The notes under the pieces were generated by a model. That model did no database searches. It saw only the letters and a program-made list of their open reading frames with translations, and had not been told where the DNA came from. Both the position numbers and the translations under genes were made by a program. 38,360 nt of DNA from Oscillospiraceae bacterium (lineage in GTDB: Bacteria; Bacillota; Clostridia; Oscillospirales; Acutalibacteraceae), in assembly GCA_015066215.1 (NCBI GenBank), contig SVOU01000003.1, forward strand, positions 1-38,360, written 5' to 3'. Shown here piece by piece: positions 11,170 through 37,275 of this stretch; positions within the stretch are counted from its first letter, which is position 1; every line of letters starts with the position of its first letter.

Positions 11170-11302
11170 GCAGATTGCCACGGCGCTTGCGCGAAAAGCG
11201 GAGAAATCCACCTTGATACGTACGTTTTCTCGTGTGAAGCCGCGAATCTGAAAATGGTATAGTCCCAAAACTGTGACCTTTATCACAAAAGGAGGAAGAA
11301 TT

Positions 11303-12139: not shown

Positions 12140-12173
12140 TCTATACTTATTAGGTATCGAGGGAGTGTGTGTG

Positions 12174-12304
12174 ATGATGTTTCGCGTACTGTGCAAACGC
12201 CTGTTGCCGATGATGCTTGCGGCAGGGCTGCTGTTGACCGGTTGTGGCGGCGCCGACAATACCGATGCCACCACGACTACAACCGGCAAGGAAAACGGCA
12301 CCAC
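12174..12304 (+). repeat. Signal-peptide cassette, copy 1 (with 13776-13906)
   Basis: The first 131 bases of this gene match those of the GH32 gene at all but four positions, and the match stops sharply inside the linker. The copies encode the same 24-residue lipoprotein signal and the first linker residues. Confidence 0.9.
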
Positions 12305-20008: not shown

Positions 20009-22231
20009 ATGGACAGAATCGTGCAAAATCTGAATATGGCGTGGGAATACCGTGAGGTGACACAGGACGCCTTTGCGCCCATACATATTCCGCACACAAT
20101 GTGCGAACTGCCGTTCAACTGCTTCGACGAAAAAAGCTATCAGACACAAGGCGTCTATCGCCGTGTGATATTTGTTCCCGCCGATTGGGCAGGACGCCGC
20201 TTGCGTTTGCGCTTTGAAGGCGTGATGACGCAAGCACAGGTGTTTCTCAACAACACTCCCGTCGGCGCGCACGATGGTGGTTATACGCCGTTTGAGGTGG
20301 ATATCACCGATGCCGTGCGATTTGGCGGGGATAATCAGCTGGTGGTGGAAGTGGATTCCCGCGAGATCCCTACCATTCCGCCCTTTGGCGGGCAGCTGGA
20401 CTATCTCACGTTCAGTGGCATCTATCGGGACGTGACCTTGCTCGTCACCGCGCCGCTGTACGTGGAAAATGCGCGTATCACGTCGCAGAATCTGTTGACT
20501 TGTGCGCCCGCCGTCACGGCTGAGGTGTTTCTCAACAACACTACCGCCGCCAAGACGGTGCAGGTACAGGTGACGGTCAGCGGGGCAGAAGGGGTTGTCG
20601 CCACGGGCGAACAAAATCTGCCCGTGCCGTTAGGCGCACAAAGCGTGCAACTGCCGCTGACCGTGTCGCAAACGCTCAACCTGTGGGATACGGAAAACCC
20701 GCATCTGTACGAGGTGCAGATTGCCGTTCTTGCCGACGGTGTTTTGTGCGATACCTATCATCTGCGCACGGGATTTCGTGAGGCGCAGTTTACCGAGCGC
20801 GGCTTCTTACTCAACGGCAAACCGCTTAAAATTTTCGGTCTTAACCGCCACCAATCCTATCCGTACGTCGGCTATGCGATGCCGGCGCGCGCTCAACGCC
20901 GCGACGCCGACATCTTGAAGGAAGAGCTTTGCTGTAATATGGTGCGTACCTCGCACTATCCGCAATCGCCGCACTTCTTGGATCGCTGCGATGAGATCGG
21001 GCTTTTGGTCTTTGAAGAATTGCCCGGTTGGCAGTTTGTCGGCGATGAGGCGTGGCAGAAAAAAGCGCTGGTGACCATGGAAGAGATGATCCGTCGCGAC
21101 TGGAATCACCCCGCTATTGTGCTGTGGGGTGTACGCGTGAACGAATCGCTCGATTTCCACGATTTTTATACCGAAACCAATCGCGTGGCACACGCACTCG
21201 ACCCCACCCGCCAGACGGGCGGCGTACGCGCTATTGACCACAGCGAATTTCTGGAAGACGTCTATACCGCCAACGATTTTATCTTTGACGGTACCAATAC
21301 CCCCCTGCGTGCACAGCAACAGGTGACAGGGCTTTCTAAAGACGTGCCCTATCTGGTCACCGAGTGCAACGGACATATGTTTCCCACCAAAAGCTTCGAC
21401 CAAGAAGAGCGACTGGTGGAACACGCTCTGCGTCACGCGGCCGTTCACGATACGGCGGCGCAGGATGATGCCGTCAGCGGTGCGCTGGGCTGGTGTGCTT
21501 TCGACTATAACACCCACTGCCAGTTTGGCAGCGGCGACAAGATCTGCTACCACGGCGTAATGGATATGTTCCGCCTGCCCAAATATGCCGCCTATTTTTA
21601 TCAGAGCCAATGCCCGCCCGAAAAGCGCGGCGTTCTGAAAGCGGCGTCGGTGGGATCTATGGGTGAACGCAGTAAGAGCGGTATTGCGCCCTTTACCGTG
21701 TTTACCAACTATGATTTTATCCGCATTTTCTCGGGCGAACGGTTGCTGGGTGAATATTATCCCGCGCGTGACCGTTTCCCCGGCCTTGCCCACCCGCCCA
21801 TTATCGCAGAAGAGGGTTTGGGCTTTTTGTGGGGCGAAAATTGGAAAGGCTTGCGCGTGGAAGCCTGGTGGCAGGGCCGTCAGGTGGAAACGGTGGATAT
21901 GGCGGCAAGCCCCCATACGGCACGCCTGACGGCTGTTGCCGATGATAACACCCTGTTTGCCGATGGCAGTGACGTGACGCGTGTGGTTTTCCGTTTGGAA
22001 GACCAAAACGGCAACCTGCTGCCGTTTACGATGGCAGTTTTGCAGCTATCCCTGGAAGGGAACGGCACCGTCATCGGTCCGTCGCTGTTGCCCTTGCGCA
22101 GCGGTACGGTTGCCGTGTGGGTGCGTGCAGGTGAACAAGCGGGTTCCCTGCGGCTGCGCGGTGTGGCGGCGGATATGGAAGCCGTCACAGAGATCACGAT
22201 GATTTCAAAGGAAGGAGTAGACTGCGTGTGA
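20009..22231 (+). CDS. GH2 family glycoside hydrolase (beta-galactosidase-like)
   Basis: This 740-residue protein has no signal peptide and should be cytoplasmic. The layout is a sugar-binding jelly roll (YRRVIFVPADWAGRRLRLRFEGV, then HDGGYTPFEVDITD and FSGIYRDVTL), an Ig-like domain, and a TIM barrel starting near FGLNRHQSYP. Acid/base E379 sits in GVRVNES and nucleophile E452 in LVTECNGHM, so the active site looks complete. C-terminal beta domains follow. The family covers beta-galactosidases, beta-mannosidases and beta-glucuronidases; the exact sugar is uncertain. The start MDRIVQ is 23 bases after the oxidoreductase stop behind AGAGG. Its stop overlaps the next gene's GTG start by four bases. 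Confidence 0.9.
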   Translation: MDRIVQNLNMAWEYREVTQDAFAPIHIPHTMCELPFNCFDEKSYQTQGVYRRVIFVPADWAGRRLRLRFEGVMTQAQVFLNNTPVGAHDGGYTPFEVDITDAVRFGGDNQLVVEVDSREIPTIPPFGGQLDYLTFSGIYRDVTLLVTAPLYVENARITSQNLLTCAPAVTAEVFLNNTTAAKTVQVQVTVSGAEGVVATGEQNLPVPLGAQSVQLPLTVSQTLNLWDTENPHLYEVQIAVLADGVLCDTYHLRTGFREAQFTERGFLLNGKPLKIFGLNRHQSYPYVGYAMPARAQRRDADILKEELCCNMVRTSHYPQSPHFLDRCDEIGLLVFEELPGWQFVGDEAWQKKALVTMEEMIRRDWNHPAIVLWGVRVNESLDFHDFYTETNRVAHALDPTRQTGGVRAIDHSEFLEDVYTANDFIFDGTNTPLRAQQQVTGLSKDVPYLVTECNGHMFPTKSFDQEERLVEHALRHAAVHDTAAQDDAVSGALGWCAFDYNTHCQFGSGDKICYHGVMDMFRLPKYAAYFYQSQCPPEKRGVLKAASVGSMGERSKSGIAPFTVFTNYDFIRIFSGERLLGEYYPARDRFPGLAHPPIIAEEGLGFLWGENWKGLRVEAWWQGRQVETVDMAASPHTARLTAVADDNTLFADGSDVTRVVFRLEDQNGNLLPFTMAVLQLSLEGNGTVIGPSLLPLRSGTVAVWVRAGEQAGSLRLRGVAADMEAVTEITMISKEGVDCV

Positions 22232-25125
22232 GAAGTCGAATCGGATGCTTGACAAAACGCCTTGTCGGCACGGTGTGTGCGCTGTCCCTGTTGCTGTCTG
22301 TGGGCGGTATGTGGGTCGCGGCAGAAAGTGAAAACGCGGTGCCGGACGAAGACCGTTTCACCGAGAGCCTGATGGATCGCGAAAACACGTACGCCGCGTA
22401 TGAGCTGGCCAATGCGGATCGTCCGCAGGGCACTGCGACCATAGAGCTGTTGCCTGACGCGTTTGCGACAGAGGAGCTCCTTCCGGCTATCTATGAAGAA
22501 AAATCGGCACTTTCGTTTGTCGGTGAAGGGGAGTCGGCAACGGCCACCTTCTCGGTGCAAACTGCCGGTATGTACGAGCTGCAGTTTGTGTATTATCCCA
22601 CCCCCGGCAACAGCCGTGAGGTGGAGATCGGCTTGGAATTGGACGGTTTGTTCCCGTTCAGCGAAGCGGCCGCGATCACGTTGGAGCGGGCGTGGAAGGA
22701 CAAGACTGCCATCCAAACCGACCCCATTACCGATAATCAGTATAGTCCCCGCCAAGAAGAGGCACCGATGTGGATGACCGCGCGCCTGAAAAATCGCGAC
22801 GGCAGTTATCGGGGGGCCTATCGGTTTTATCTGTCGGAAGGCGAGCATACTCTGCGCCTGACCGCCTTGCAAACCGCGTTTGCTTTCGGCGGCTGCGCTT
22901 TTGTGCCGTCTGTGACGGTGCCTACCTATCAGGAATACATAGCACAACACGGCGCGCCGCAAAACGGCACGCATATAGAGGTCTTGGAAGCGGAGGCGGC
23001 GTCGCTCAAATCCGACCAGACGCTGGTTCCCGCCAACGACCGCACCAGCCCCAACACCTCGCCCTATGACGTCGCCAAGATCCGTATGAACGTGATCGGT
23101 GCCAACTGGTCGGCGACGGCGCAGTGGATCGAATGGTCGTTTTCGGTGCCCGCTGACGGCTGGTATCGCTTAAACTTCCGTTATCAGCAGGACGCGATCA
23201 AAGGTATGCCTACCCACCGTCTGCTGACCATCGACGGCGCTACGCCCTTCAAAGAAGCGCTGACGGTGAAATTCCCCTACACCGAGCGGTGGGATTCCGT
23301 CGGCTTGCAGGATAGCGAGGGCAACGAAGCAGCGTTGTGGCTGACCGCAGGTCCGCACACGTTGCGTATGGAAACCACGTCGGGCGAGCTGACCGACTCT
23401 ATTCGTCAGCTGGACAACGTGGTGTATGATCTCAATGAAATTTATCGCCAGATCATTATGATCACGGGCGTATCTCCTGATGAATATCAGGACTATAACC
23501 TGGTTGCCAGCATTCCGAAACTGCTCGAAACGCTGTCTGCCTGCGCGGTTTCTCTGCGCAGCGCCTACGACGACGTGTCGGCACTTTCCGGCGGCAAGGG
23601 CAACTATGCGGAGCTGCTCAGCCGTTTTGCTTATCAGCTGGAAGATTTCGTGGAAGAAAGCGACACGATCGACCTGCGGTTGACCGAGTTCAAGGATAAT
23701 ATCACCGCACTGTCGGCGTGGCTGTTGGATATGAAGCAGCAGCCGTTGATGCTCGACACCATCACGGTGAGCAGCCCCGGCGTGGAGCTGCCGCGTGCCA
23801 CCGACACCTTCTGGGAGCGGTTGAAGCACGAGATTATGGCGTTTTTCGTGTCCTTCGTGGCGAACTATGACATCGTCGGCTCGGAAGACCGTCAAGAAAA
23901 CATCACCCTGTGGCTCAATTCCGGTCGCGATCAGGCACAGGTGATCAAATCGATGATCAACGATATGTTCACCGCCGAAACGGGTATCGGCGTCAATATC
24001 AAGCTGGTCAACGCCAGTTTGGTGCAGGCAAAGCTGTCGGGCAATTCCCCCGACGTGTCCATTATGCAGGGACGCGGACAACCCGTCAACCTGGCGGTGC
24101 GCAACGCGCTGCTGCCGTTGGATGAATTTGAAGGCTTTGACGAGGTGCTGACGCGTTTTCAGGAGTCGGCGGTCATTCCCTATCAGCTGGACGGCAAGAC
24201 CTACGCGTTGCCGGATTCCCAGAGCTTCTTTATGATGTTTTACCGTAAAGACGTGCTGCGGGAGCTGTTGCTGACGCCGCCCCAAACGTGGGATGAACTG
24301 AAAGCCGTGTCCTCGGTGTTGCAGCGCAACAATATGGAGATCGGTCTGCCGTATACCAGCATCGACGCCAGCGGCGCCGTAGACTCGGGTATGGGTTCGC
24401 GCAATATTTTTTCCGCGTTGCTGTTGCAGGCGGGCGGTCGCGTTTATAACGACAACCTTTCCGCAACAGAGCTGTCTACCCCTGTTTCTCAGCAGGCGTT
24501 TATCGACTGGACGGAGTTTTATCAGCTTTACGATATGCCGCTCGCCTACGATTTCTATAACCGCTTCCGCACGGGCGAGATGCCGATCGGTATTGCCTCT
24601 TACACGATGTATAACTATCTGGCAGTTGCTGCACCCGAGCTGCGCGGTCTGTGGGATATGGTGCCCATTCCCGGCACCAAAAAGGCAGACGGCAGCATTG
24701 ATATTTCGCAGGGCGGTGCAGGCAGTGCGTGTATGATCCTGTCCGATACCAAACACCCCAAGGAGTCTTGGGAGTTCCTCAAATGGTGGACGGGCGCGGA
24801 CGCCCAGATTCGTTACAGCAGCGATATCGAGGCTGTGATGGGCGTGTCGGCGCGTTATCCGACCGCCAATATGGAAGCTTTTGCCAGCGTAAACTGGACG
24901 CGGCAGGAGATGGCCAACCTCAACAAGCAGTGGTCTGCCGTGAAGGAGATTCCGGAAGCCATCGGTGGTTATACGCTGGTGCGCGGCTTGGATAACGCCT
25001 TCCGCGAGGCCGTTTTGGAAGGACGTAATGCCCGCGAGGCGTTGCTTGTCTGGGATCGCAGCATCAACGATGAGATCCGCAGAAAACGAGAGGAGTTCCA
25101 TTATGACATTGATGAAGCGTCTTAA
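22228..25125 (+). CDS. Large extracellular solute-binding protein with N-terminal carbohydrate-binding-like modules
   Basis: This 965-residue protein starts with a GTG overlapping the GH2 stop by four bases, behind AAGGAAGGAG. It has a signal peptide (about 1-33) without a lipobox cysteine. Two beta-sandwich modules follow (about 84-245 and 250-400), each with an F-V-GxY-L-F-Y pattern (FSVQTAGMYELQFVYY; FSVPADGWYRLNFRY) like CBM35/CBM6-type domains. A helical region precedes a family-1 solute-binding domain from about residue 559 (ITLWLNSGRDQ, SPDVSIMQGRG, KTYALPDSQSFFMMFYRKDVL, WEFLKWWTG). It should capture a glycan for the permease pair that follows. Fusion of binding modules to such a receptor is known in Firmicutes; the ligand is unknown. 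Confidence 0.85.
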   Translation: MRSRIGCLTKRLVGTVCALSLLLSVGGMWVAAESENAVPDEDRFTESLMDRENTYAAYELANADRPQGTATIELLPDAFATEELLPAIYEEKSALSFVGEGESATATFSVQTAGMYELQFVYYPTPGNSREVEIGLELDGLFPFSEAAAITLERAWKDKTAIQTDPITDNQYSPRQEEAPMWMTARLKNRDGSYRGAYRFYLSEGEHTLRLTALQTAFAFGGCAFVPSVTVPTYQEYIAQHGAPQNGTHIEVLEAEAASLKSDQTLVPANDRTSPNTSPYDVAKIRMNVIGANWSATAQWIEWSFSVPADGWYRLNFRYQQDAIKGMPTHRLLTIDGATPFKEALTVKFPYTERWDSVGLQDSEGNEAALWLTAGPHTLRMETTSGELTDSIRQLDNVVYDLNEIYRQIIMITGVSPDEYQDYNLVASIPKLLETLSACAVSLRSAYDDVSALSGGKGNYAELLSRFAYQLEDFVEESDTIDLRLTEFKDNITALSAWLLDMKQQPLMLDTITVSSPGVELPRATDTFWERLKHEIMAFFVSFVANYDIVGSEDRQENITLWLNSGRDQAQVIKSMINDMFTAETGIGVNIKLVNASLVQAKLSGNSPDVSIMQGRGQPVNLAVRNALLPLDEFEGFDEVLTRFQESAVIPYQLDGKTYALPDSQSFFMMFYRKDVLRELLLTPPQTWDELKAVSSVLQRNNMEIGLPYTSIDASGAVDSGMGSRNIFSALLLQAGGRVYNDNLSATELSTPVSQQAFIDWTEFYQLYDMPLAYDFYNRFRTGEMPIGIASYTMYNYLAVAAPELRGLWDMVPIPGTKKADGSIDISQGGAGSACMILSDTKHPKESWEFLKWWTGADAQIRYSSDIEAVMGVSARYPTANMEAFASVNWTRQEMANLNKQWSAVKEIPEAIGGYTLVRGLDNAFREAVLEGRNAREALLVWDRSINDEIRRKREEFHYDIDEAS

Positions 25126-26071
25126 AGAGAATTATGCATGGAACCGCTCGCGCAGAGAGGATGCCCGTCGCACGCGCATCCCCTTCAAGAAGGAGCTGCG
25201 TCAAAACTATCAGCTCTATCTGATGTTGATGCCGTTTCTGCTTTTGTTCTTGCTGTTCATCATTCTCCCCATCGTCAGTGCCGTGGGATTGAGCTTTACC
25301 TACTATAACATCTATGAAGAGCCGATGTTCAACGGCTTCAAAAACTACGTCAGCCTGTTTGCCAACGACGACGTGTTTTTCATCGCCTTGAAAAACACGC
25401 TTGTCTTCGCGGTGATCACGGGCCCTGTCAGTTATGTGCTGTGCTTTTTTATCGCGTGGCTCATCAACGAGATGTCGCCGCGTGTGCGCGTGCTGATGAC
25501 CTGTATCTTTTACGCGCCGACGCTGGCGTCATCGGTGTTTTTCATCTGGCAGTTCATTTTCAGCGGTGACTCTTACGGCTTTATGAACAGCATATTGATG
25601 AAACTGGATCTCATCCGTGAGCCGATTCAGTGGCTTGCCGACGCGCGGTACAGCTTGGCCGTGCTGATGGTCGTGCAGATCTGGATGAGCCTCGGCACCA
25701 GCTTTTTGGCGTTTATCGCCGGCTTCAAAGCGGTGGATCCCAGCTTGTATGAAGCGGCGGACATCGACGGTGTGCGCAACCGCTATCAGGAGCTGGCGTA
25801 TATCACCCTGCCCATTATGAAACCGCAGTTGGTGTTCAGCGCCGTGATGCAGATTTCCGCATCCTTCTCGGTGAGTACCATTTCTATGCAGTTGTGCGGT
25901 TTCCCCAGCACGAAATATTCCGCGCACACCATCGTGTTGCACATTATGGACTACGGCAATATCAAATATGAGATGGGCTATGCCTGTGCGATTGCCGTGG
26001 TGCTGTTTGCCATTATGCTGTTGGTCAAATTCTTGGTTGACCGCGTGTTGGCGTTGCTTGGTTCAGAATAA
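25103..26071 (+). CDS. Carbohydrate ABC transporter permease (MalF/LplB type)
   Basis: This 322-residue protein has about six membrane segments, beginning with YLMLMPFLLLFLLFIILPIVSAVGLSF. The permease EAA-type loop is seen in DPSLYEAADIDGVRNRYQELAYITLPIMKP, which contacts the ATPase. The ATG at 25103 lies inside the 3' end of the solute-binding gene (23-base overlap) behind GAGAGGAG, which indicates tight coupling. The frame is open further upstream but only inside the preceding gene. It forms the first permease pair with the next gene. Confidence 0.9.
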   Translation: MTLMKRLKENYAWNRSRREDARRTRIPFKKELRQNYQLYLMLMPFLLLFLLFIILPIVSAVGLSFTYYNIYEEPMFNGFKNYVSLFANDDVFFIALKNTLVFAVITGPVSYVLCFFIAWLINEMSPRVRVLMTCIFYAPTLASSVFFIWQFIFSGDSYGFMNSILMKLDLIREPIQWLADARYSLAVLMVVQIWMSLGTSFLAFIAGFKAVDPSLYEAADIDGVRNRYQELAYITLPIMKPQLVFSAVMQISASFSVSTISMQLCGFPSTKYSAHTIVLHIMDYGNIKYEMGYACAIAVVLFAIMLLVKFLVDRVLALLGSE

Positions 26072-26089
26072 ACGAAAGGAGGGCGTATT

Positions 26090-26959
26090 TTGTTCGGGAT
26101 AAAAAAGGCTTCGACACGCAACCGCCACGCAAACCGTACGCGGTTCGGTACCTTTATGATCTTTCTGTTTTTGGGTTTGCTCGGTGCGTTTATGATATTG
26201 CCGCTTTTGTACGGTATTCTCAACGCCTTTAAGCCGCTGGAAGAGATCTATATCTATCCGCCGCGCTTTTGGGTGCGCAACCCCACGATGGAAAACTTTT
26301 CTATGTTGTTTAAGCTGGCGTCGGGACTGCAAGTGCCGTTCAGCCGATACGCCTTCAACAACATATTCGTTTCGGTAGTCACGACGGTAGGACACGTGGT
26401 CATCTCCTCGATGGCGGCGTTTCCGCTCGCCAAATACAGATTGCGTATTGGTTGGCTGTTCAAGGTGGTGGTCAGCTGTCTGATGTTCAGCTCCGCCGTT
26501 TTGTGGATCCCGCAATACGTGATTATGTCCCGCCTGGGAATGATCGACACCTATTGGGTGTATATCCTGCCGGCGTTGCCGGCACCGATCGGTGTCTTTC
26601 TGATGAAGCAGTTTATGGAGCAGATCCCCTTCGTTTTGGTGGAATCTGCGACGATTGACGGCGCAAGCCAGTGGCGCACCTTCTGGAGTATTGTGATGCC
26701 GCAGGTCAAGCCCGCGTGGCTGACCTTGGCGCTGTTTGCTTTCCAAGGTGTCTGGAACCAGAGTCTGCAAGGCTTGGTGTTCAGCGAAGAGTTAAAAATG
26801 TTGGGTGATGCGATCAGCCAGATCATGGCGGGCGGTTTTGTCCGTATGGGCGCATCTATGGCGGGTAGCGTATTTATGATCATACCGCCGTTCCTGTTGT
26901 TCTTGGGAACACAAAACCGCGTTATCGAAACGATGGCGCACTCGGGTATCAAAGGTTAA
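26090..26959 (+). CDS. Carbohydrate ABC transporter permease (MalG/LplC type)
   Basis: This 289-residue protein has about six membrane segments (FMIFLFLGLLGAFMILPLLYGILNAF near the N terminus) and the EAA loop VESATIDGASQWRTFWSIVMPQVKP. The start is a TTG placed 6 bases after AAAGGAGGG; no ATG or GTG with a ribosome site is nearby. It lies 18 bases after the first permease and forms the partner half of the channel. Confidence 0.9.
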   Translation: MFGIKKASTRNRHANRTRFGTFMIFLFLGLLGAFMILPLLYGILNAFKPLEEIYIYPPRFWVRNPTMENFSMLFKLASGLQVPFSRYAFNNIFVSVVTTVGHVVISSMAAFPLAKYRLRIGWLFKVVVSCLMFSSAVLWIPQYVIMSRLGMIDTYWVYILPALPAPIGVFLMKQFMEQIPFVLVESATIDGASQWRTFWSIVMPQVKPAWLTLALFAFQGVWNQSLQGLVFSEELKMLGDAISQIMAGGFVRMGASMAGSVFMIIPPFLLFLGTQNRVIETMAHSGIKG

Positions 26960-26982: not shown

Positions 26983-29067
26983 GTGACACGTTTTATACCG
27001 AAAACCGTGATAGCGGTGCTGGTCATTATGTTGTTATTGACCCCCGTTTTTCAAGTTGCGGCCGCGTCGGTTGACGAAGGATACGGCTATAACAGCTACG
27101 ACGAGTCTGTACCTGCCCCTGCGGGCTATCAGGACGACCTGACCGTCTACGGTCAGGTGTCGCCCGAAGGGTCCTTCGGTATGGCGCAGGATATGGCGAC
27201 CTATGACGGTGAACTGTACGTGCTCAACAGCAAGATCGGCATTATCACGGTGCTCAACGCCGATCTGGAATATCAACGCAGCATTCGCTTTACCCGCGAT
27301 GGGGAAGAGCTGTCCGTCGTGGGTGCCAACGGTATGTTTTTGGACAAGACCGACGACGGCTTGCAGATCTTGCTGGCAGATACCGAAAACCAGCGGGTGT
27401 TGCGCGCCGACGCAACGGGTCGCGTGATGCAGGTCTATCAAAAACCCACGGAGGAATTGTTCCCCCAAAAACAAGAATTTCGTCCTACCAAGGTGTTGGT
27501 AGGCAGCGATAAAACCGTTTACGTGATCTGCCAGGGCGTCTATAAAGGCGCAGTCACGTTCTCTGCCGACGGTGAATTTCTCGGCTTTTACGGCAGCAAC
27601 GATATTGATATTACCGCGGCTATGCTGTTGGAGCATTTTTGGAAAAGCCTGATGAACCAGGAACAGTTGGGTCGCGTACAACAAAACGTGTCCATTGAGT
27701 TTACCAATTTCGCGGCAGATTCCCGCGGGTTTATCTACACCTGCACCCGCGTCACCGATAACTCTATGGGCGAGATCAAACGCCTCAACGCCAAGGGCAT
27801 CAACCTGTTGCCTGTGGACAATTACGGCGATCTGGAAGATGCGTGGATCAAGAGCGAGCATCAGGACACCGCATTTGTCGACATCGTGTCGATCAACGAC
27901 AATTTGGTGGCGGCGTTGGATACCCAGCGCGGTCGCGTGTTCCTGTATAGCAACGACGGTATGCTGCTGATGATCTTCGGCGGCAGCGGACAGTTCCAAG
28001 GGACGTTCCGTACCCCTTCGGCGTTGGAATGTATCGGCGACAGTATCTACGTGTTGGATCCTTACAAGGATTCCATCACACGGTTTGCTCCCACGTCCTA
28101 CGGAACGGCGCTGTTGACGGCGTCGTCCCTGTATCAGGACGGACGGTATGCCGAGTCGCTGGATCTGTGGAAACAGGTGATTCGGCAAAACGGCAACTTT
28201 GAAACGGCGTACGTCGGCATCGGTCGCGCGCTGATGGGACAAGAGGACTATGCCGGCGCGATGGACTATTTCAAAAAAGGTCAGGACCGCACGGGTTATT
28301 CCCAAGCCTATAAAGAATATCGCAAGACCAGCGCACAATTTCTGGTGGCGCCGATGCTCATAGCCATCGTGGTGCTTTTGGTGGTGTATGGCTTGTATGC
28401 GCGCTATCTGCGCGGACCGAAGCGTGAAGTAAGCCTGACAACCGCCTCGGTAGCAAGACGGTGCAGCCACACGCTGCTGCATCCTACCGACGGTTTTACA
28501 GCCCTGATGAACGCGCCGCGCCGCGGGATTTCGGTGCTGTGCGGTATATTGATCACCTGCCTGTTTGGTGTGGCGATCCTTCACCGTCAGGCAACGGCGT
28601 TTGTGTTTAACGAAAACAAGCTGGAAGAGTTGGATATCCGTATGATCTTTGCGATCACGGTGATCGTGTTCTTTGCCTTCGTGCTGTCCAACCGCTTGGT
28701 GTGTACGCTGTTTAACGGCAACGGCGCGGTGCGCGAGATTATATGCGTCTGTGCCGTATCGTTGATACCGATGATGTTGGCGATGGTGCTGAAAATCGCC
28801 ATCAGCCATTTCCTGTCGCTGGATGAAGGCGGTCTGCTGACTGCTTTGATGGTGATAGGCATTATGTGGTCTGTGTTGCTCCTGCTGGCAGGTATGCGAC
28901 AGATCCACGAATACGATACCAAGCAAGCGGTGCTGTCGGTGATATTCACCGTTATCGGTATGATGCTGATGGCGTTTATCGGCTTGCTGGTCTATGGACT
29001 TTACAACCAGATCGCCGCATTTTTCGGCGCGATCATCGACGAGATCTCGTATATTGGTATGACCTAA
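26983..29067 (+). CDS. NHL beta-propeller/TPR membrane protein with C-terminal Yip1 domain
   Basis: This 694-residue protein has a signal peptide or anchor (about 1-28). An extracellular NHL/six-bladed propeller region spans about 45-365, with repeats such as LQILLADTENQRVLR, VVAALDTQRGRVFLYSNDG and DSIYVLDPYKDSITRF. TPR-like helices follow at about 380-440 (LYQDGRYAESLDLWKQVI, YVGIGRALMGQEDYAGAMDYFKKG), then a transmembrane helix near 453-474 and a multi-helix Yip1-like domain to the end. Proteins with this layout recur beside DUF5696 and carbohydrate ABC genes in Firmicutes. A sensing or assembly role at the transporter is inferred, not proven. The start is a GTG behind GAAGGAG, 24 bases after the permease. 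Confidence 0.75.
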   Translation: MTRFIPKTVIAVLVIMLLLTPVFQVAAASVDEGYGYNSYDESVPAPAGYQDDLTVYGQVSPEGSFGMAQDMATYDGELYVLNSKIGIITVLNADLEYQRSIRFTRDGEELSVVGANGMFLDKTDDGLQILLADTENQRVLRADATGRVMQVYQKPTEELFPQKQEFRPTKVLVGSDKTVYVICQGVYKGAVTFSADGEFLGFYGSNDIDITAAMLLEHFWKSLMNQEQLGRVQQNVSIEFTNFAADSRGFIYTCTRVTDNSMGEIKRLNAKGINLLPVDNYGDLEDAWIKSEHQDTAFVDIVSINDNLVAALDTQRGRVFLYSNDGMLLMIFGGSGQFQGTFRTPSALECIGDSIYVLDPYKDSITRFAPTSYGTALLTASSLYQDGRYAESLDLWKQVIRQNGNFETAYVGIGRALMGQEDYAGAMDYFKKGQDRTGYSQAYKEYRKTSAQFLVAPMLIAIVVLLVVYGLYARYLRGPKREVSLTTASVARRCSHTLLHPTDGFTALMNAPRRGISVLCGILITCLFGVAILHRQATAFVFNENKLEELDIRMIFAITVIVFFAFVLSNRLVCTLFNGNGAVREIICVCAVSLIPMMLAMVLKIAISHFLSLDEGGLLTALMVIGIMWSVLLLLAGMRQIHEYDTKQAVLSVIFTVIGMMLMAFIGLLVYGLYNQIAAFFGAIIDEISYIGMT

Positions 29068-29091
29068 TCCGAAGAAGGAGAGATGCAAGGG

Positions 29092-31350
29092 ATGAAAACA
29101 AAACGATTCCTGCGGTTGCTGGCGGCTTCGACAGCGGTACTGCTGATACTCTCTGTTTTCGGGTGTTCTTCGGCAGACAGCGTACAGGAAGACGACAAAA
29201 CGCCGCCGATGGAACGGGGGGTACGGTTGTCGGGCGACGGATTTACCGAAGTTGCCGCCAACGACCGCTTTGCGCTGTCGTGTGATACGGAAAACGGCGT
29301 ATTGCTTTTGCTGGACCGTCAGACGGGTCGGCAATATCGCAGCAATCCCGAAAACGTCAAGGACGATCCGCTTGCCAAGGGTATTACGCGCACGAATATG
29401 AGTTCGCAGCTGCTCATCACCGTGGCAGATCAAAAAGGCAACATCGATCCTTATAACTCTTCCGTGGATGCGGTGGGCGAGAACGGACTTGTGGTATCGC
29501 GTACGGAAAACGGGATCATCTTGGACTACAACTTCAAACGGCTGGGCATCAATATCCCGCTGGTCATCACGCTGAGTGATGAGGGGATCAAAGCAAGTGT
29601 CTTGCTCAATGAGGTGCAAGAAACCAACGAAAAATATCGCTTGGTCTCGGTCGGCGTGTTGCCGTATTTCGGTGCCGCAAACTCCGAAGAAGAGGGCTAC
29701 GTGTTGTTGCCCGACGGCAGCGGTGCGCTTTTGCGTTTCAACAACGGCAAAACCACCTACGGCTATTACACCAAGCCTGTGTATAACAACGATGCCTACG
29801 AGAGCGGGCAATTCGGCTCCAACACCGGCGAAGCGGTGATGCTGCCGCTTTACGGTATGCACTATGACGCGACCGAAAACGGCAAAGAAGCCGGTTTCGT
29901 GACGCTGGTTTCCGAGGCGGCGGCGATGGCTACCCTCAACGCCACGCCTGCGGGTGTGAATTGCAGTTATAACAACGCCTATTTCTCCTTTGTCTATCGC
30001 ACGGCAAAGGAAGTCAGTGTGCTCAGCCGTACGTGGGCAGAAAAAGCCTTCAATATGGTATCGAAGTACACGGCAACGAGTGATAACCCGACGATGGAAT
30101 ATTGTTTCCTGCAATCGGAAACTACGGGCTATACCGATATGGCGCGCTTTGTCAGCGACCGTCTGCAACAGATGGGTGCCACTCCAAAAGCCGCCACGCC
30201 TTCGCTGGTGCTGGACGTTTACAGCACGGTGGTCAAGTTGGGCTACACGCTGGGTATTCCCCACGACAAGTCGGAAGTGATCACCGATTTCGTTCAAACA
30301 GAGGCGATCTTGCAGGATATGCAGGCGCACAACGTGACCTTGCGGTTGCTGGGCTGGGACGAAGACGGTGCCGTGGGCGGCAGCGTGCGCAACGATTATG
30401 ATCCCGCGTCGGTCGCAGGCGGTGATAAAGGACTCGAAGCCCTGTTTGCCGCCGCTGACAAAATGGGCGTGCCGATCTATCTGGAAGCAGAGCCGATGCG
30501 GTTTACCGACGGCACGTTGCAGTATAACGCCCTGTTCCACGCCGCCACCCAGATCACGAACAAACCCATCAAGGTGTATACCTATCGCCGCAGTACGAAC
30601 GAGCGCAACACGTTGGTGGATACCTATTCGCTGTTGTCACCGCAGTATCTGCCCGAGGTGGTAGGGGATATGAACGCCTCGTTGCCCGACGGTATGCATT
30701 TGTCGCTGGGCTCGCTCGGACAGTACACCTATGCGGATTTCGGTAAGCAGTTTTTCAGCCGTGAGCAGACGGCAGACGTTGCCGCCTCGCTGATTGCACA
30801 GGTGGCAGAAAACCGCAAACTTTACGGTGAAAATCCCGCGTGGTACGCACTGCCGTATATGCAAGTGGCAGCAGACGTGCCGCTTTACAGCAGCAAATAT
30901 AACTATTTTGATGAATCCGTTCCTTTCGTGCAGTTGGTACTGCGCGAGCTGATGACGGTGTCCACCCCGTCGGTCAACCTGTCGGGCGAGCCGCAAAAGG
31001 TGTTTTTGCGGGCGGTGGAAACCGGTTGCAATCTGAAATTCTCCTTCATCGGTTGCTCGTATGAGGAGATTCGCGATACCCAGTTGAACGTGTTGTACGG
31101 TGCAGAATACGCCCTGTGGAAAGACGAGGCACTGCACTATCAGAAAGAGCTGGAAACGGCGCTCGACGGTCTTGGCAACGTGTCCATTAGCGAGCACCGT
31201 ATGCTGACCGACACGCTGGTATCGGTCATTTACGAAAACGGCGTCGAGATTTTGGTCAACTATGGCCGTGAAGCCTGTACCGTGGGCGAAGATACGGTAG
31301 AGGCGCTCTCGTGGTTGCGCCGTACGCAGACGGGAGGTGCCGACGTATGA
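29092..31350 (+). CDS. DUF5696-like lipoprotein
   Basis: This 752-residue lipoprotein has signal LLILSVFGC (lipid C25) and a long extracytoplasmic part. The layout is a beta-rich N-terminal half (RFALSCDTENGVLLLLDRQTGRQYRSNPE, YVLLPDGSGALLRFNNGK) and a TIM-barrel-like C-terminal half (TLRLLGWDEDGAVGG, GVPIYLEAEPMRF, MHLSLGSLGQYTYADFG). It resembles DUF5696 proteins that co-occur with Yip1/NHL proteins and carbohydrate ABC genes; a glycan-processing role is suspected but unknown. I prefer the ATG at 29092 (MKTKRF) over one at 29083, because the latter is only 2 bases after GAAGGAG. Its stop overlaps the next permease start (ATGA). Confidence 0.7.
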   Translation: MKTKRFLRLLAASTAVLLILSVFGCSSADSVQEDDKTPPMERGVRLSGDGFTEVAANDRFALSCDTENGVLLLLDRQTGRQYRSNPENVKDDPLAKGITRTNMSSQLLITVADQKGNIDPYNSSVDAVGENGLVVSRTENGIILDYNFKRLGINIPLVITLSDEGIKASVLLNEVQETNEKYRLVSVGVLPYFGAANSEEEGYVLLPDGSGALLRFNNGKTTYGYYTKPVYNNDAYESGQFGSNTGEAVMLPLYGMHYDATENGKEAGFVTLVSEAAAMATLNATPAGVNCSYNNAYFSFVYRTAKEVSVLSRTWAEKAFNMVSKYTATSDNPTMEYCFLQSETTGYTDMARFVSDRLQQMGATPKAATPSLVLDVYSTVVKLGYTLGIPHDKSEVITDFVQTEAILQDMQAHNVTLRLLGWDEDGAVGGSVRNDYDPASVAGGDKGLEALFAAADKMGVPIYLEAEPMRFTDGTLQYNALFHAATQITNKPIKVYTYRRSTNERNTLVDTYSLLSPQYLPEVVGDMNASLPDGMHLSLGSLGQYTYADFGKQFFSREQTADVAASLIAQVAENRKLYGENPAWYALPYMQVAADVPLYSSKYNYFDESVPFVQLVLRELMTVSTPSVNLSGEPQKVFLRAVETGCNLKFSFIGCSYEEIRDTQLNVLYGAEYALWKDEALHYQKELETALDGLGNVSISEHRMLTDTLVSVIYENGVEILVNYGREACTVGEDTVEALSWLRRTQTGGADV

Positions 31351-32240
31351 AAAAACCTCATCGTCGTATGTCCTTGGCCACACGGCAGGGCTTAAGCGGG
31401 TTTTTGTTCATCTCTCCGTGGTTGGTCGGTGTCACCGTTTTCTTCCTGATTCCGTTTTTCAGCACCATCATCTATGCATTCGGCAAGGTGCAGTTCGTTT
31501 CGGGCGGTGTGGAATATGAGTTCACCGGCTGGGAAAATATCCGCGAGGTGTTTTTCCGCGATCCCGACAACTTCCGTATGATTCTGGAAAATCTGGGCTC
31601 ATCCATCGGCAGCGTGTTGCTCGTGTTGGTATTTTCTCTGTTTGCCGCGTTGTTGCTCAACCAGAAATTCCACGGTCGCGCCGTTGTGCGTGCGCTTTTC
31701 GCATTGCCGATCATCGTGTCCTCCGGCGTGTTGCTGATGGTGTTCAAGGAAGACCTGTTTGCACAGTCTATGATGTCCGAGCCGGGCACCATCTTCCAAA
31801 GCTCCGCGTTGGAAGATACGCTGACGAATATGGGATTGGGTCACGAGTTCGTCACCTTTGTCACCGACTTCGTCGATAATATTATGGACATCATCTGGAA
31901 ATCCGGCGTGCAGATTTTGCTGTTCTTGGCAGGCTTGCAGGCGGTTCCGCGCACGTTGTATGAGGTGAGTTCGGTGGAAGGCGCCACGGCGTGGCAAACC
32001 TTCTGGAAGATCACCTTCCCGTTGCTGGCTCCCTACATCGTGCTCAACAGCGTCTACTCTATCATTGATTCCTTCACATTCTATGACAATCCCGTGATGG
32101 AAAAGGTCAACAAGTTGTTTGGCGAGATGAGCTATGGACACGCATCTGCGCTGTCAATTGCCTACTTCCTGCTGATATTCTTGCTGACGGCGACGGTGCT
32201 GGTGATCTCGTCACGCCGCGCGTTCTATCAGGAAAAGTAA
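31347..32240 (+). CDS. Carbohydrate ABC transporter permease, second pair (MalF/UgpA type)
   Basis: This 297-residue protein has about six membrane segments (GFLFISPWLVGVTVFFLIPFFSTIIYAF near the N terminus) and the EAA loop in PRTLYEVSSVEGATAWQTFWKITFPLLAP. A larger periplasmic-side insert between segments (residues about 140-180) is visible. The ATG overlaps the previous stop by four bases behind GGGAGGTG, so it is coupled to the DUF5696-like gene. Confidence 0.92.
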   Translation: MKKPHRRMSLATRQGLSGFLFISPWLVGVTVFFLIPFFSTIIYAFGKVQFVSGGVEYEFTGWENIREVFFRDPDNFRMILENLGSSIGSVLLVLVFSLFAALLLNQKFHGRAVVRALFALPIIVSSGVLLMVFKEDLFAQSMMSEPGTIFQSSALEDTLTNMGLGHEFVTFVTDFVDNIMDIIWKSGVQILLFLAGLQAVPRTLYEVSSVEGATAWQTFWKITFPLLAPYIVLNSVYSIIDSFTFYDNPVMEKVNKLFGEMSYGHASALSIAYFLLIFLLTATVLVISSRRAFYQEK

Positions 32241-32279
32241 TCTTTCGATATCCGAAGCACAGGAGGTGCGGACGTTTTG

Positions 32280-33230
32280 ATGACAAAACTGAATATGAAT
32301 GTGGATTGGAATCGGTTGGGAAGCCGAGCCGTCAAGCGGTGGATCTGGCCGTTTTGCCGTGCGATGATCCTGTTCGGCATCTGTTTCCTACTGCTCTATC
32401 CGCTGTTGTTTATGTTTACCAGCGCGTTTCGCAGCCGAGAGGATATGTGGGATCCCTCGGTGGTGTGGATCACGCGCAACTTCACCTTGGAACATCTCGA
32501 AACCCTGATCGACGTGATCAACTATCCCAAAGCCCTCACCAACACGCTGCTCATCAGCGTAGGTACTGCAACGTTGCAGATGCTGGTGTGCTCGCTGGCG
32601 GGATATGGCTTTGCGCGGTTCCGCTTCAAGGGCCGCGAGGCACTGTTTTTGCTGGTGATATTCACCATCATCGTGCCGCCGCAGGCGATCATCAACGGTC
32701 TATATATGATTATGCGCTTTTTCCATATCCCCATATATTCTCTGTTTGCCGGCTCGGTCAATATGCTGGACACGCCGATGGCGTTTTGGGTGCAGGGACT
32801 TTTGGGAATGGGATTGCGCTCGGGCTTCTTCATATTTATCTATCGACAGTTTTATCGAGGAATGCCTGCCGATCTGGAAAACGCCGCGCTCATCGACGGT
32901 TGCGGTGCGTTCAAAACTTACTTGCGCGTAATGTTGCCAAATGCTATTATGGTGATGGTGACGGTGTTTATGTTCTCACTGGTGTGGCACTGGAACGACT
33001 CCTACACGACCAGTATTTTGTCACCTAACAACCAAACGCTGTCGGTGGCGTTGGCGGATCTGCGTATCATCGTCTTCCGACTGGACGGTGCAGGCGAAGA
33101 GGATCCGATGATCACGCAAGTGCGTGTGCAGGCGGGTGCGTTGCTCTCGATTTTGCCCATGCTGATACTGTTTATGTTTACCCAAAAAACTTTCACAGAA
33201 AGCATAGAGCGTACGGGCATCGTCGGATGA
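32280..33230 (+). CDS. Carbohydrate ABC transporter permease, second pair (MalG type)
   Basis: This 316-residue protein has about six membrane segments (MILFGICFLLLYPLLFMFTSAF) and the EAA loop LENAALIDGCGAFKTYLRVMLPNAIM. The ATG at 32280 is chosen; a TTG directly before it is in frame and at a slightly better distance from AGGAGGTG, so the start is uncertain by one codon. It completes the second permease pair. Confidence 0.92.
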   Translation: MTKLNMNVDWNRLGSRAVKRWIWPFCRAMILFGICFLLLYPLLFMFTSAFRSREDMWDPSVVWITRNFTLEHLETLIDVINYPKALTNTLLISVGTATLQMLVCSLAGYGFARFRFKGREALFLLVIFTIIVPPQAIINGLYMIMRFFHIPIYSLFAGSVNMLDTPMAFWVQGLLGMGLRSGFFIFIYRQFYRGMPADLENAALIDGCGAFKTYLRVMLPNAIMVMVTVFMFSLVWHWNDSYTTSILSPNNQTLSVALADLRIIVFRLDGAGEEDPMITQVRVQAGALLSILPMLILFMFTQKTFTESIERTGIVG

Positions 33231-33278: not shown

Positions 33279-33315
33279 CAACAAAAGCTGCGTATTTAGA
33301 AAAGGAGTGCGACTA

Positions 33316-34662
33316 ATGAAAAAGATGACTCGATGGATCAGCCTGTTGTGCTGCCTGCTGATGGTTCTCGCGTTCTTGGGCGGCTGCGGTGACAACGGCA
33401 ACGGCGATGACACCGATACCACCAAAACCACCGTGGCGGCGCCTAACTATGGCGACCGTCCGCTGGAAGACAACGTGAACACCGACCAGATTGGCTTTGA
33501 AAAGAAGGAACTGGCAAACGCCAACGTCACCCTGTTCCTGCCGTATGAGCCCACCGATGATGCCAAAGAGCGCATCGCGGCTTATGAAACCTATTACGGC
33601 GGCAAAGTGAATCTGATCACCTGCTCTTGGGACGTGCGTATTTCCCGCTTGGCACAGTTGATCCAGTCCGGCGACTCCCCCGACGTTGTGTCGGTGGTGT
33701 GCAGTGATATGCCCACCTTCGCGGTGAAGGGTCTGTTGGATCCTATCGACGGCTATACCGATCTGACCAACAAGGTGTATCATCAGGAAAGCAACGACGG
33801 CATTTACAGCTTTAACGGCAAGCATTATGCGCTTACCACCTTCGCCGCTCCCTATGCTATCTTCTTCAACCGTACTATGTTCAAACGCGCGGGCGTGACC
33901 GCTCCCGACGAGCTGTACAAAGAGGGCAACTGGAACTGGGATACCTTCCGTCAGACCGCTCTGGATATGAGCGAGGACACCGATCAGGACGGCTTCAACG
34001 ACGTGTGGGGCTTCGGCACCTGGCGTGACGACATCTTCCTGACCGCCAACGGCACCGACCTCATCAAAATGGAAGACGGTTATCCCGTGCTCAACGTGAC
34101 TGATCCCAAGGTTTCCAAGGGTCTGCAACTGTTCCAGGATATGTTCTACACCGACCTGTCCATCCAGAAAGCACACTGGGGCTGGTACGAAGGCTTCCGC
34201 GATAAGAAAGTGGCGATGGTCTTTGAAGGCGCCGATTGGCAGATCAGCCGTCTGCTGGCCGAGGGCTTTGAAGATGAGATCGGCATCGTGCCGTTCCCGA
34301 TGGGCCCCGACGCCACTGAGCAGGTCAACTATGTTGCCAATACCGGCTTCGGCCTGGGTAAAGACGCCCCCAACAAAGAGGGCGGCGCTGCCTTTATCGA
34401 ATTCTTCCTCGCCGAAGGCTATAAGAGCATGATGCAGGGCAAAGGCTGGTCTCACCTGACTGATGACCAGTACGATATGCTGCACAGCATGCTCAGCCAA
34501 AAGGCTGTTGTGTCTTTGACCACTGCCTACGGTGATTTCTCCACCAAGTTCTTCAACCTGACCGACGATCTGCGCGCGGGCAAACCTGTGGGTACGCTGC
34601 TGCAATCCTACGCCCCCGTTTTGCAGGCGGAAATCGACAAGGTGGTTTCTTCGGACGTCTGA
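33316..34662 (+). CDS. Extracellular solute-binding lipoprotein (ABC family 1)
   Basis: This 448-residue lipoprotein has signal MVLAFLGGC (lipid C24), a short acidic/Thr linker, and a family-1 carbohydrate-binding-protein domain. Landmarks are LIQSGDSPDVVSVV, HYALTTFAAPYAIFFNRTMFKRAG, WNWDTFRQTALDMSEDTDQDG, WGWYEGFRDKKVAMVFEGADWQ and GGAAFIEFFLAEG. It should deliver an oligosaccharide to the second permease pair. A potential calcium loop (DTDQDGFND) is visible. The start MKKMTRW follows AAAGGAG at good spacing; the ORF opens three codons earlier. It lies after the 13-bp hairpin and 24 bases before the mosaic lipoprotein gene. Confidence 0.92.
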   Translation: MKKMTRWISLLCCLLMVLAFLGGCGDNGNGDDTDTTKTTVAAPNYGDRPLEDNVNTDQIGFEKKELANANVTLFLPYEPTDDAKERIAAYETYYGGKVNLITCSWDVRISRLAQLIQSGDSPDVVSVVCSDMPTFAVKGLLDPIDGYTDLTNKVYHQESNDGIYSFNGKHYALTTFAAPYAIFFNRTMFKRAGVTAPDELYKEGNWNWDTFRQTALDMSEDTDQDGFNDVWGFGTWRDDIFLTANGTDLIKMEDGYPVLNVTDPKVSKGLQLFQDMFYTDLSIQKAHWGWYEGFRDKKVAMVFEGADWQISRLLAEGFEDEIGIVPFPMGPDATEQVNYVANTGFGLGKDAPNKEGGAAFIEFFLAEGYKSMMQGKGWSHLTDDQYDMLHSMLSQKAVVSLTTAYGDFSTKFFNLTDDLRAGKPVGTLLQSYAPVLQAEIDKVVSSDV

Positions 34663-34686
34663 TAGCACTTGAAGGGAGAGTTTACT

Positions 34687-37275
34687 ATGAAAAACCGTTA
34701 TTTTGCACGGCGCATTATCGCCCTTGCCTGTTGCTTTGTGATGGCGATAGCGATGACGGGCTGCGGCGCGGATGACGGCGGCGAGGTGAGTACGACGACT
34801 GCAACAACCACAACAACGGCCGCCGATGCTCCTTCTAACGATGGCGGCGATAAGGGCACGACGGCTGCGACCGGCGGTACGACGACCACGACCACCGGTA
34901 CGACGAACGTGCCGACGGATACAGAAAGCAAGCCCAATCCGCCGACGCGTATTCCCGCGGCGCCGGATAAGCCGTACGTGGATCCGACGACGATCAATGC
35001 GGTGGGCGCCCCTGCACCCGAATGGATGCGCGAGGGCGAGATGTATACCCACGGCACCTATCTCATCCCCGGCGATTTTATGTATGACCTCAACGAGTGG
35101 GCACCCTATTTCAACTTCATTACCGGCTCTGCTTGGAACACCGATACCAACAACACCTACCGCGAGCTTGGTGTGAAGAGCGACTCGTATTTCGACCCCT
35201 ACCACGTTTTCAGCGACCACAACATTACCGTGATGACCGCGCGTGGTGAGTACGTGCAATCAGACTATATCGAGCCGGGTCGCAACGACTTGTACGTGGT
35301 TTGCCACAACTGTCCCGATATGACGCTGCCGTGGGCGTATGACTATATCGACCGCGCCATGTCCTTTGGACAGACGGGTATGTTCTTTGACGATATCCGC
35401 GCTCCCTATGAGAGCATCGCCAAAGCGTATAATACCTGCTACTCCACCAACCACAAACATACGTTGACGGGCACCAATACCTACAACTATTTCCACAGCA
35501 CCCTGCCCGCCATCTACGACTACGTCAAAAAGCAAAATCCCAACTTCTACGTACTGCTCAACGGCGGCAACCCCATGTCGCCCGCCGATGACGTGAGTAC
35601 GCCCAAAACGGTTTGGCCGTTTGCTGACGCACTTATGTGGGAGCACGCTATCTATGACGCCAACACCACCAAGTGGTGCTCGTGGGCGATGCTGAAAAAT
35701 GCGGCGGAGATTTTGAAGCCCGGCATCGACAACGGCAAGGTGGAATTGCTCCTGTCCTATTCCTACAACAAGATGACCAAGCAAAAGGCCTTGGATGCCG
35801 TGAAGTATACGCTGGCCTATTGCCGCCTCTACGACTATATGTGGAGTGATTATAACACTCTGCTGACCTCGCCGCTTGGCTTGGATCAGGTCAAAGAGGT
35901 CTACGGCACCAAGACCGGCCCTGCGGGCGCCTATGGCGTGTTCTACGGTCGCGTGGTGGAGGCAACGAGCGGTGCGGCTATTGCGGGTGTGACCGTGAAG
36001 GCTGGCAATGTCAAGGCGACCACCGACGATAACGGCTACTTCTCCATCAGGACGCCGAAAAACACCACCACCGTGACCCTCACTTGCGACGGCTATAAAA
36101 CCACGTCGCAGCGCTTGACGGGCTATCAGGATAACCTGAAAATGGAAAAGACGAGTGGCAAGACCTATTATGTCGCGCCTTTCGGCAGCAACGACAACGA
36201 CGGTCTGTCCAAAGCCACCCCGTGGCGCAGCATCAACAACGGTGATGCGAAGGGTATTCTCAAGCCCGGTGACACGGTCGTGCTGACCGAGGGTACGTAC
36301 AGCGTGCCCAACCAAACGGTCTACAAGTCTTCCGGTACCGCCGATGCGCCCATCACCTATATAGCGGACGGCTACGTGGTCGTGCGTACGGCACAGGGCA
36401 ACGGTTCTCCGTTTGTGCTGAAAGGTAACTATACGGTGTGGGACGGCATTATCTTTGAAGGCAGCCAAGCGGGCGTGAAGAGCCTGATGACCGTCGTCGG
36501 CAACTATAACCACATCCGCAACTGCGAATTCGGTGATACCGCGTTCTATAACGAAGCCAACAAGCTGTCGGCTGAGTCGGCGGTCACCATTCGCGGTGAA
36601 AACACCAAGTTCCACCACAACGTGCTCGGCAGTGACGTCTATGCGTCGACCGCGTTGCGTGTGGAGGCGAAATCTGCCGAAATCCTGCACAATACCTTTG
36701 ACGGTACCTTGACCGCAGGCGGCAAAACCAAAACGGCACTCACCCTGACCAATGCGGGCGACTCCATCGTGATCAAGAACAATATGTTCAGCACCTACGA
36801 TCAGGCGTACGCAAACGGCAAGGGAGCCACCTTTGCGGGCAACTTCTTCAACAAGACCTCGCGCGATGCGGCTTGTGCCGGCGACAAGGATCAGTTGGAC
36901 AAGGATCCCTGTTTTATGTGGCAACTCTCGGGCGACTATGACCTCAAACGCACCAGCCCCGCTGTCAATGCGGGCGTGTATGCGGGCTTTGCCTATCGCG
37001 GCTCTGCTCCCGACATCGGTGCTTGGGAGACCGCCTACAACGACAACTATGATGCGGTGCTCAACGGCCGCGTGATGACGCGCGTCTTTGCCAACACGGT
37101 GGTGCTGCTCAACACCTCGCTCGCTGAGCAGGTGGTTTCGGTACCGCTTGGCGTGTCCGGCGCGCAGCTCAAAGAAGTTTTGGGCGACAAGATCTGGACG
37201 GCTGACGGCAGTGGCAACCTTCTGGTGACGGTGCCCGCTGACCGCGCACTCATTTTGGTCGGCGTGGACAAATAA
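34687..37275 (+). CDS. Mosaic lipoprotein: glycosidase-like domain, regulatory-like domain and beta-helix
   Basis: This 862-residue lipoprotein (AIAMTGC, C26) has a Thr-rich linker to about residue 95. A TIM-barrel-like region follows (about 100-410) with MFFDDIRAPY (D235, D236) and ALMWEHAIYD (E319), which may be catalytic acids of a glycosidase-like fold; the family is not one I can name. A carboxypeptidase-regulatory-like beta-sandwich comes next (about 416-485, GVTVKAGNVKATTDDNGYFSIRTP). Then a right-handed beta-helix from about 492 (TYYVAPFGSNDNDGLSKATPWRSI, a DUF1565-like start) is typical of polysaccharide lyases or adhesins. It is the last gene of the operon, behind AAGGGAGAG. Polysaccharide binding or cleavage is inferred. 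Confidence 0.75.
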   Translation: MKNRYFARRIIALACCFVMAIAMTGCGADDGGEVSTTTATTTTTAADAPSNDGGDKGTTAATGGTTTTTTGTTNVPTDTESKPNPPTRIPAAPDKPYVDPTTINAVGAPAPEWMREGEMYTHGTYLIPGDFMYDLNEWAPYFNFITGSAWNTDTNNTYRELGVKSDSYFDPYHVFSDHNITVMTARGEYVQSDYIEPGRNDLYVVCHNCPDMTLPWAYDYIDRAMSFGQTGMFFDDIRAPYESIAKAYNTCYSTNHKHTLTGTNTYNYFHSTLPAIYDYVKKQNPNFYVLLNGGNPMSPADDVSTPKTVWPFADALMWEHAIYDANTTKWCSWAMLKNAAEILKPGIDNGKVELLLSYSYNKMTKQKALDAVKYTLAYCRLYDYMWSDYNTLLTSPLGLDQVKEVYGTKTGPAGAYGVFYGRVVEATSGAAIAGVTVKAGNVKATTDDNGYFSIRTPKNTTTVTLTCDGYKTTSQRLTGYQDNLKMEKTSGKTYYVAPFGSNDNDGLSKATPWRSINNGDAKGILKPGDTVVLTEGTYSVPNQTVYKSSGTADAPITYIADGYVVVRTAQGNGSPFVLKGNYTVWDGIIFEGSQAGVKSLMTVVGNYNHIRNCEFGDTAFYNEANKLSAESAVTIRGENTKFHHNVLGSDVYASTALRVEAKSAEILHNTFDGTLTAGGKTKTALTLTNAGDSIVIKNNMFSTYDQAYANGKGATFAGNFFNKTSRDAACAGDKDQLDKDPCFMWQLSGDYDLKRTSPAVNAGVYAGFAYRGSAPDIGAWETAYNDNYDAVLNGRVMTRVFANTVVLLNTSLAEQVVSVPLGVSGAQLKEVLGDKIWTADGSGNLLVTVPADRALILVGVDK

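Follow-up and report, generated by a model that had tools for sequence, protein, structure and literature searches.

A propeller–Yip1 membrane protein and a GH129-related lipoprotein as probable parts of a conserved glycan-uptake module in Bacillota

Results

Genes of the locus

The stretch analysed here, referred to as the window, comprises 38,360 nucleotides from an Oscillospiraceae bacterium (contig SVOU01000003.1, positions 1 to 38,360). The genes relevant to this study are:

22228..25125, + strand: SBPfus, secreted, in which a helical linker joins N-terminal CBM35-like domains to a C-terminal solute-binding domain (SBP_bac_1/8)
24965..26071, + strand: permA1, ABC permease (PF00528, 6e-9)
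26090..26959, + strand: permA2, ABC permease (PF00528, 1.2e-11)
26983..29067, + strand: NHL/Yip1 protein, with signal peptide, NHL propeller (residues ~60-370), TPR (378-435), TM segment (448-478) and Yip1 domain (497-665)
29083..31350, + strand: DUF5696 lipoprotein, by alignment a GH129-superfamily homologue without the GH129 catalytic residues
31311..32240, + strand: permB1, ABC permease (PF00528, 1.5e-7)
32277..33230, + strand: permB2, ABC permease (PF00528, 3.5e-11)
33307..34662, + strand: lipoprotein solute-binding protein (SBP; PF01547, 1e-21; lipobox LGGC)

Two SBPs and two BPD_transp_1 permease pairs provide the solute-binding and permease parts of a carbohydrate ABC importer. The NHL/Yip1 and DUF5696 genes lie between the permease pairs (24965-26959 and 31311-33230), exactly where an earlier note on this DNA had placed them. 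The real start of permA1 is likely near ATG 25103, its orthologues being ~300-330 aa long, and permB1 most likely starts at ATG 31347, overlapping the DUF5696 gene at its stop codon by 4 nt (ATGA). No ATPase gene was found in the module of the window; one UgpC/MsmX-type ATPase gene exceeds the cut-off elsewhere in the genome.

The window also contains a GH2 gene. Directly after the lipoprotein SBP, and outside the conserved module, lies an 868-aa lipoprotein with a carboxypeptidase-regulatory-like domain (34669-37275). The regions 11273-13667 and 15536-18565 together encode a local paralogous family, in which a 1009-aa secreted protein has sequence in common with two shorter proteins upstream of it (288 and 500 aa). 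An 1168-aa open frame antisense to the pair (27034-30540, - strand) lacks support as a gene and probably results from the codon usage of GC-rich coding DNA.

Architecture of the NHL/Yip1 protein

The fusion of propeller, TPR and Yip1 domain proposed in the earlier note is borne out by profile searches, orthologues and structure prediction. Yip1 (PF04893) matches the window protein at 8.6e-12 and 45.7 bits, over a cut-off of 28.6, and the hydrophobic segments at 513-675 agree with the ~5 TM helices of that family; TPR matches at 8.5e-6. For the window copy taken alone, NHL stays below threshold (0.097). Among the 24 members of the ortholog alignment, 19 match the NHL family, the ortholog profile matches PknD, TRIM and designed Pizza propellers, and the predicted structure (mean pLDDT 53, the propeller part mostly higher) matches TRIM71/Thin NHL domains in fold comparison. 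Yip1 is matched by 20 of the 24 alignment members, the other four being split NHL halves; in 14 loci NHL-TPR-TM and Yip1 are encoded as two adjacent genes, and elsewhere they are fused. The signal peptide and TM segments suggest that propeller and TPR face the exterior and that the Yip1 domain is embedded in the membrane. No orthologue possesses a cytoplasmic signalling domain, Yip1 forming the C-terminal end, and the split Yip1 genes likewise encode no additional domain.

A conserved seven- to eight-gene module

DUF5696 was surveyed in two sets of 200 genomes, one from the window's family and one from its phylum. From these we retrieved ~80 loci, identified neighbours with profiles built from the window genes and examined 74 DUF5696 genes. 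The common order is SBPfus > permA1 > permA2 > NHL/Yip1 > DUF5696 > permB1 > permB2 (> SBP), with SBPfus as the opening gene in most loci. The recurrence that the earlier note ascribed to the pair is therefore real and far beyond chance, and the recurring unit is larger, at seven to eight genes. Its order is kept across Bacillota families, including plasmids of Paenibacillus cellulosilyticus, with ugpC in front, and of Butyrivibrio fibrisolvens. Some genomes contain six or more copies; in the window's own genome a second NHL/Yip1-DUF5696-permB1-permB2 module (L004, G000:C79) is cut by a contig end.

The propeller gene is present in the locus for 52 of the 74 DUF5696 genes and absent for 22. 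Where it is present it precedes DUF5696 in 51 of 52 cases, 49 of them within 50 bp (median gap 13 bp); at L111 it lies downstream. Permeases accompany every propeller-linked DUF5696 gene except at L104, where the contig ends. The distance from DUF5696 to permB1 is within 50 bp in 51/51 loci, 30 of which overlap, with a median of -4 bp, which together with the ATGA overlap in the window substantiates the suggested coupling of the pair to the second permease pair. SBPfus and the permA genes (the A half) usually lie upstream of NHL/Yip1 and occur downstream in L035, L051 and L102. Since no A half is seen beside ~9 B halves (some of these stretches end at contig ends), its presence in cis is not obligatory.

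Module flanks carry GH3, 10, 16, 26, 28 and 43, GDSL esterases and AraC/LacI regulators, with a histidine kinase nearby in some loci. We rejected a single-substrate hypothesis on account of the variation of these flanking GH families, which points to a general chassis serving many substrates. In Paenibacillus cellulosilyticus (L114, 12058-22046) several LLM-class flavin oxidoreductases and additional SBPs lie behind the module, which hints at a substrate out of the ordinary. Scans of viral contigs found no relatives.

Within the phylum sample of 200 genomes, 17 carry both genes, none carries DUF5696 only, and one has a weak partial propeller match only (nominal Fisher p 1e-23, uncorrected for genome relatedness); a strong full-length NHL/Yip1 match was found in none of those lacking DUF5696. 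SBPfus is present in 17/17 genomes with the pair, full-length in two others and as a partial match in a third, more distant matches elsewhere covering the SBP domain only. Distance matrices of the seven module genes correlate at 0.67-0.87, the highest value (0.87) being that between NHL/Yip1 and DUF5696; part of this co-divergence signal is contributed by the shared ancestry of the genomes.

The 22 DUF5696 genes with neither propeller nor permeases nearby all belong to the window's family. Because they stand alone the pairing is not absolute, and we dropped the strict claim that the two genes always occur together. The earlier note had expected neither gene to be found often by itself and far from transporters; DUF5696 is so found at these 22 loci, and the propeller protein is not. 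Six stand-alone genes (L062, L063, L066, L070, L072, L082) start 52-129 bp after sigF, five of them behind a complete spoIIAA-spoIIAB-sigF operon, and this GH129-like lipoprotein is possibly tied to sporulation.

DUF5696 as a distant relative of GH129

PF18952 (DUF5696) matches residues 140-743 of the window lipoprotein (lipobox LSVFGC) at 6.4e-143. When a profile built from 43 DUF5696 proteins was searched against the whole PDB sequence set with hmmsearch, the best match was DagB (8RZK, 5OPQ; 6.7e-10), and NagBb (5WZN) was matched at 2e-5. Profile-profile comparison of linked DUF5696 with GH129 aligned 615 columns at 99.95% (global mode; E-value not database-calibrated). Conversely, PF18952 picks up true GH129 proteins at 1.5e-24, which also match Glyco_hydro_101 weakly; such proteins, NagBb-like and with catalytic residues intact, were detected by the DUF5696 model in the window's family (L084-L090). 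Weak PF18952 matches to branching enzyme and other GH13-like proteins were set aside as general TIM-barrel signal. DagB consists of a beta-sandwich, a TIM barrel and an Ig-like domain (PMC5698469), a layout that fits the aligned DUF5696 layout. On these alignments, DUF5696 is a full-length distant relative of the GH129 glycosidases NagBb and DagB. It is to the TIM-barrel part of GH129-type enzymes that the second half of the lipoprotein aligns, and its earlier description as barrel-like was correct.

The view that nothing in the sequence fixes the activity was too pessimistic, as the superfamily can be identified and its catalytic residues checked. In eight GH129 sequences D330, D435, E478, H320, D322, H366 and W398 (NagBb numbering) are invariant; among these, D330, D435 and E478 are functional residues of NagBb, with D435 and E478 as the catalytic pair. 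By an alignment of ~10% identity, in which local shifts are possible, DUF5696 does not conserve the catalytic and Ca-binding residues of GH129. Of the 52 linked proteins, 3 have Asp where GH129 has D330 and 7 have Glu where it has E478; nothing corresponds to W398. Near D435, a residue named in PMC5698469, residue 544 of the window protein is Ser; the corresponding residue is Asp in 22/22 stand-alone forms and 19/52 linked ones. DUF5696 thus seems to have lost the catalytic residues of a sugar-cutting enzyme fold, and on this residue evidence we rejected GH129 membership with GH129 activity. D552 (43/52 linked, 21/22 stand-alone) and E646 (47/52 and 21/22) are well conserved, and a different catalytic pair or mechanism is therefore possible. 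Mean identity within DUF5696 is 26%.

Discussion

The pair is almost always inherited with two sugar-importing transporters, and is therefore probably a set of working parts of a widespread and hitherto undescribed glycan-uptake machine. Our preferred reading, to which we assign a probability of about one half, is that both proteins belong to a conserved Bacillota module for ABC import of glycans, with the Yip1 protein as membrane-assembly scaffold and DUF5696 as glycan-handling subunit. Oligosaccharides freed by glycosidases, whether neighbouring or secreted, would be retained on the external surface of the membrane by the SBPs and the GH129-fold lipoprotein; the NHL-TPR-Yip1 protein would act as a scaffold or assembly factor tying the lipoproteins to the permeases; and a shared MsmX/UgpC-type ATPase, encoded elsewhere, would power the permeases. 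Gene identities, order, linkage, co-occurrence, fold family, topology signals and the missing GH129 catalytic set can be read directly from sequence. We infer from them a physical complex of the pair with permeases and SBPs. The scaffold role is proposed by analogy with YknW, a Yip1-family protein that modulates assembly of the ABC transporter YknXYZ (PMC4887032); Yip1 genes also accompany ABC exporters in bacteriocin clusters (PMC10707071). By similar analogy, the DUF5696 lipoprotein may bind or position glycans. The picture may be extended further: at the cell surface the Yip1-propeller scaffold would join two ABC importers, and DUF5696, as a glycosidase that no longer cleaves, would pass glycans on to the permeases, so that the module would parallel SusCD-type capture systems in Gram-positive bacteria. 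We offer this only tentatively, and consider it rather doubtful as it stands.

Several other readings account for part of the evidence. DUF5696 could represent a new family of glycoside hydrolases, active at the cell surface through relocated catalytic residues; it would trim oligosaccharides just ahead of import, and NHL/Yip1 would anchor it to the importer. In keeping with such an enzyme are the homology to GH129-type enzymes over the full length, the conserved polar and acidic positions D552, R560, Q617, N632 and E646, and the glycosidase genes adjoining the module. Catalytic residues do shift within the superfamily, DagB being reported to have just one of NagBb's two (PMC5698469). However, the canonical residues are not conserved, the Asp shared by all stand-alone forms is kept by only a minority of linked ones, and the high divergence of DUF5696 fits loosened constraint or changing ligands. 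We therefore regard cleavage as a minority possibility, though one to be taken seriously, and a surface glycan-handling subunit that binds rather than cleaves as more likely on the residue evidence.

The earlier note had envisaged an extracellular sensor-processing complex serving transport. Its link to transport is strongly supported; the sensor has no direct support, and scaffold plus glycan-handling subunit fits better. A sensing propeller protein would read glycan or SBP load outside through NHL/TPR and relay it across the membrane through Yip1 to regulate transport or expression, as might befit a propeller outside the cell that a TM helix connects to a membrane domain. Some bacterial sensor kinases do carry NHL propellers, among them PknD, which the profile matches, and some loci have regulators or a histidine kinase nearby. 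Yet the protein ends with Yip1, split Yip1 genes bring nothing further that could signal, and separate regulators are already present, which makes sensing improbable. That the pair is an envelope-maintenance unit merely co-transcribed with transporters is more improbable still: the stand-alone genes downstream of spoIIA operons do imply that the family can serve envelope roles unconnected with transport, but the near-invariable permease pair beside propeller-linked DUF5696 and the high co-divergence with SBP and permeases speak against it.

These results trace a DUF family to a known fold and assign it a role that can be tested. They also bring to light two putative accessory subunits, near-obligate ones, of glycan ABC importers in gut and rumen Clostridia and in Paenibacillus. 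Should they be true structural parts of the importers, the customary picture of an SBP, two permeases and a shared ATPase would be incomplete for a large group of polysaccharide users. Our literature search on DUF5696, or on Yip1/NHL with carbohydrate transport, found nothing relevant.

Comparison with characterized systems places these proteins more precisely. NagBb, a GH129 alpha-N-acetylgalactosaminidase, resembles DUF5696 in full-length profile, domain layout and a C-terminal H...T/Y..NG motif; DUF5696 differs in its low identity, in its lack of conservation at D330, D435, E478, the Ca ligands and W398, and in being a lipoprotein linked to ABC importers. DagB, a GH129-like 3,6-anhydro-D-galactosidase (5OPQ, 8RZG-8RZK), shares its domain order; unlike DUF5696 it lies outside any ABC importer module, and most DUF5696 proteins lack Glu at the position matching catalytic E517/E478. 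YknWXYZ of Bacillus, a MacAB-like exporter, offers the likeness of a Yip1-family membrane protein as a required partner modulating ABC transporter assembly, but has neither propeller/TPR nor GH-like lipoprotein. The permeases of our module are of the BPD_transp_1 importer type, and no membrane-fusion protein or MacB-like exporter gene occurs in its conserved part. Also comparable are those carbohydrate ABC importers of Gram-positive bacteria that rely on a multitask MsmX/UgpC ATPase, which likewise combine an SBP with two MalF/MalG-type permeases and no operon ATPase, and for which the literature searched describes no accessory proteins of the NHL/Yip1 and DUF5696 kind. The module departs from them in bringing together two permease pairs and two SBPs with two accessory proteins.
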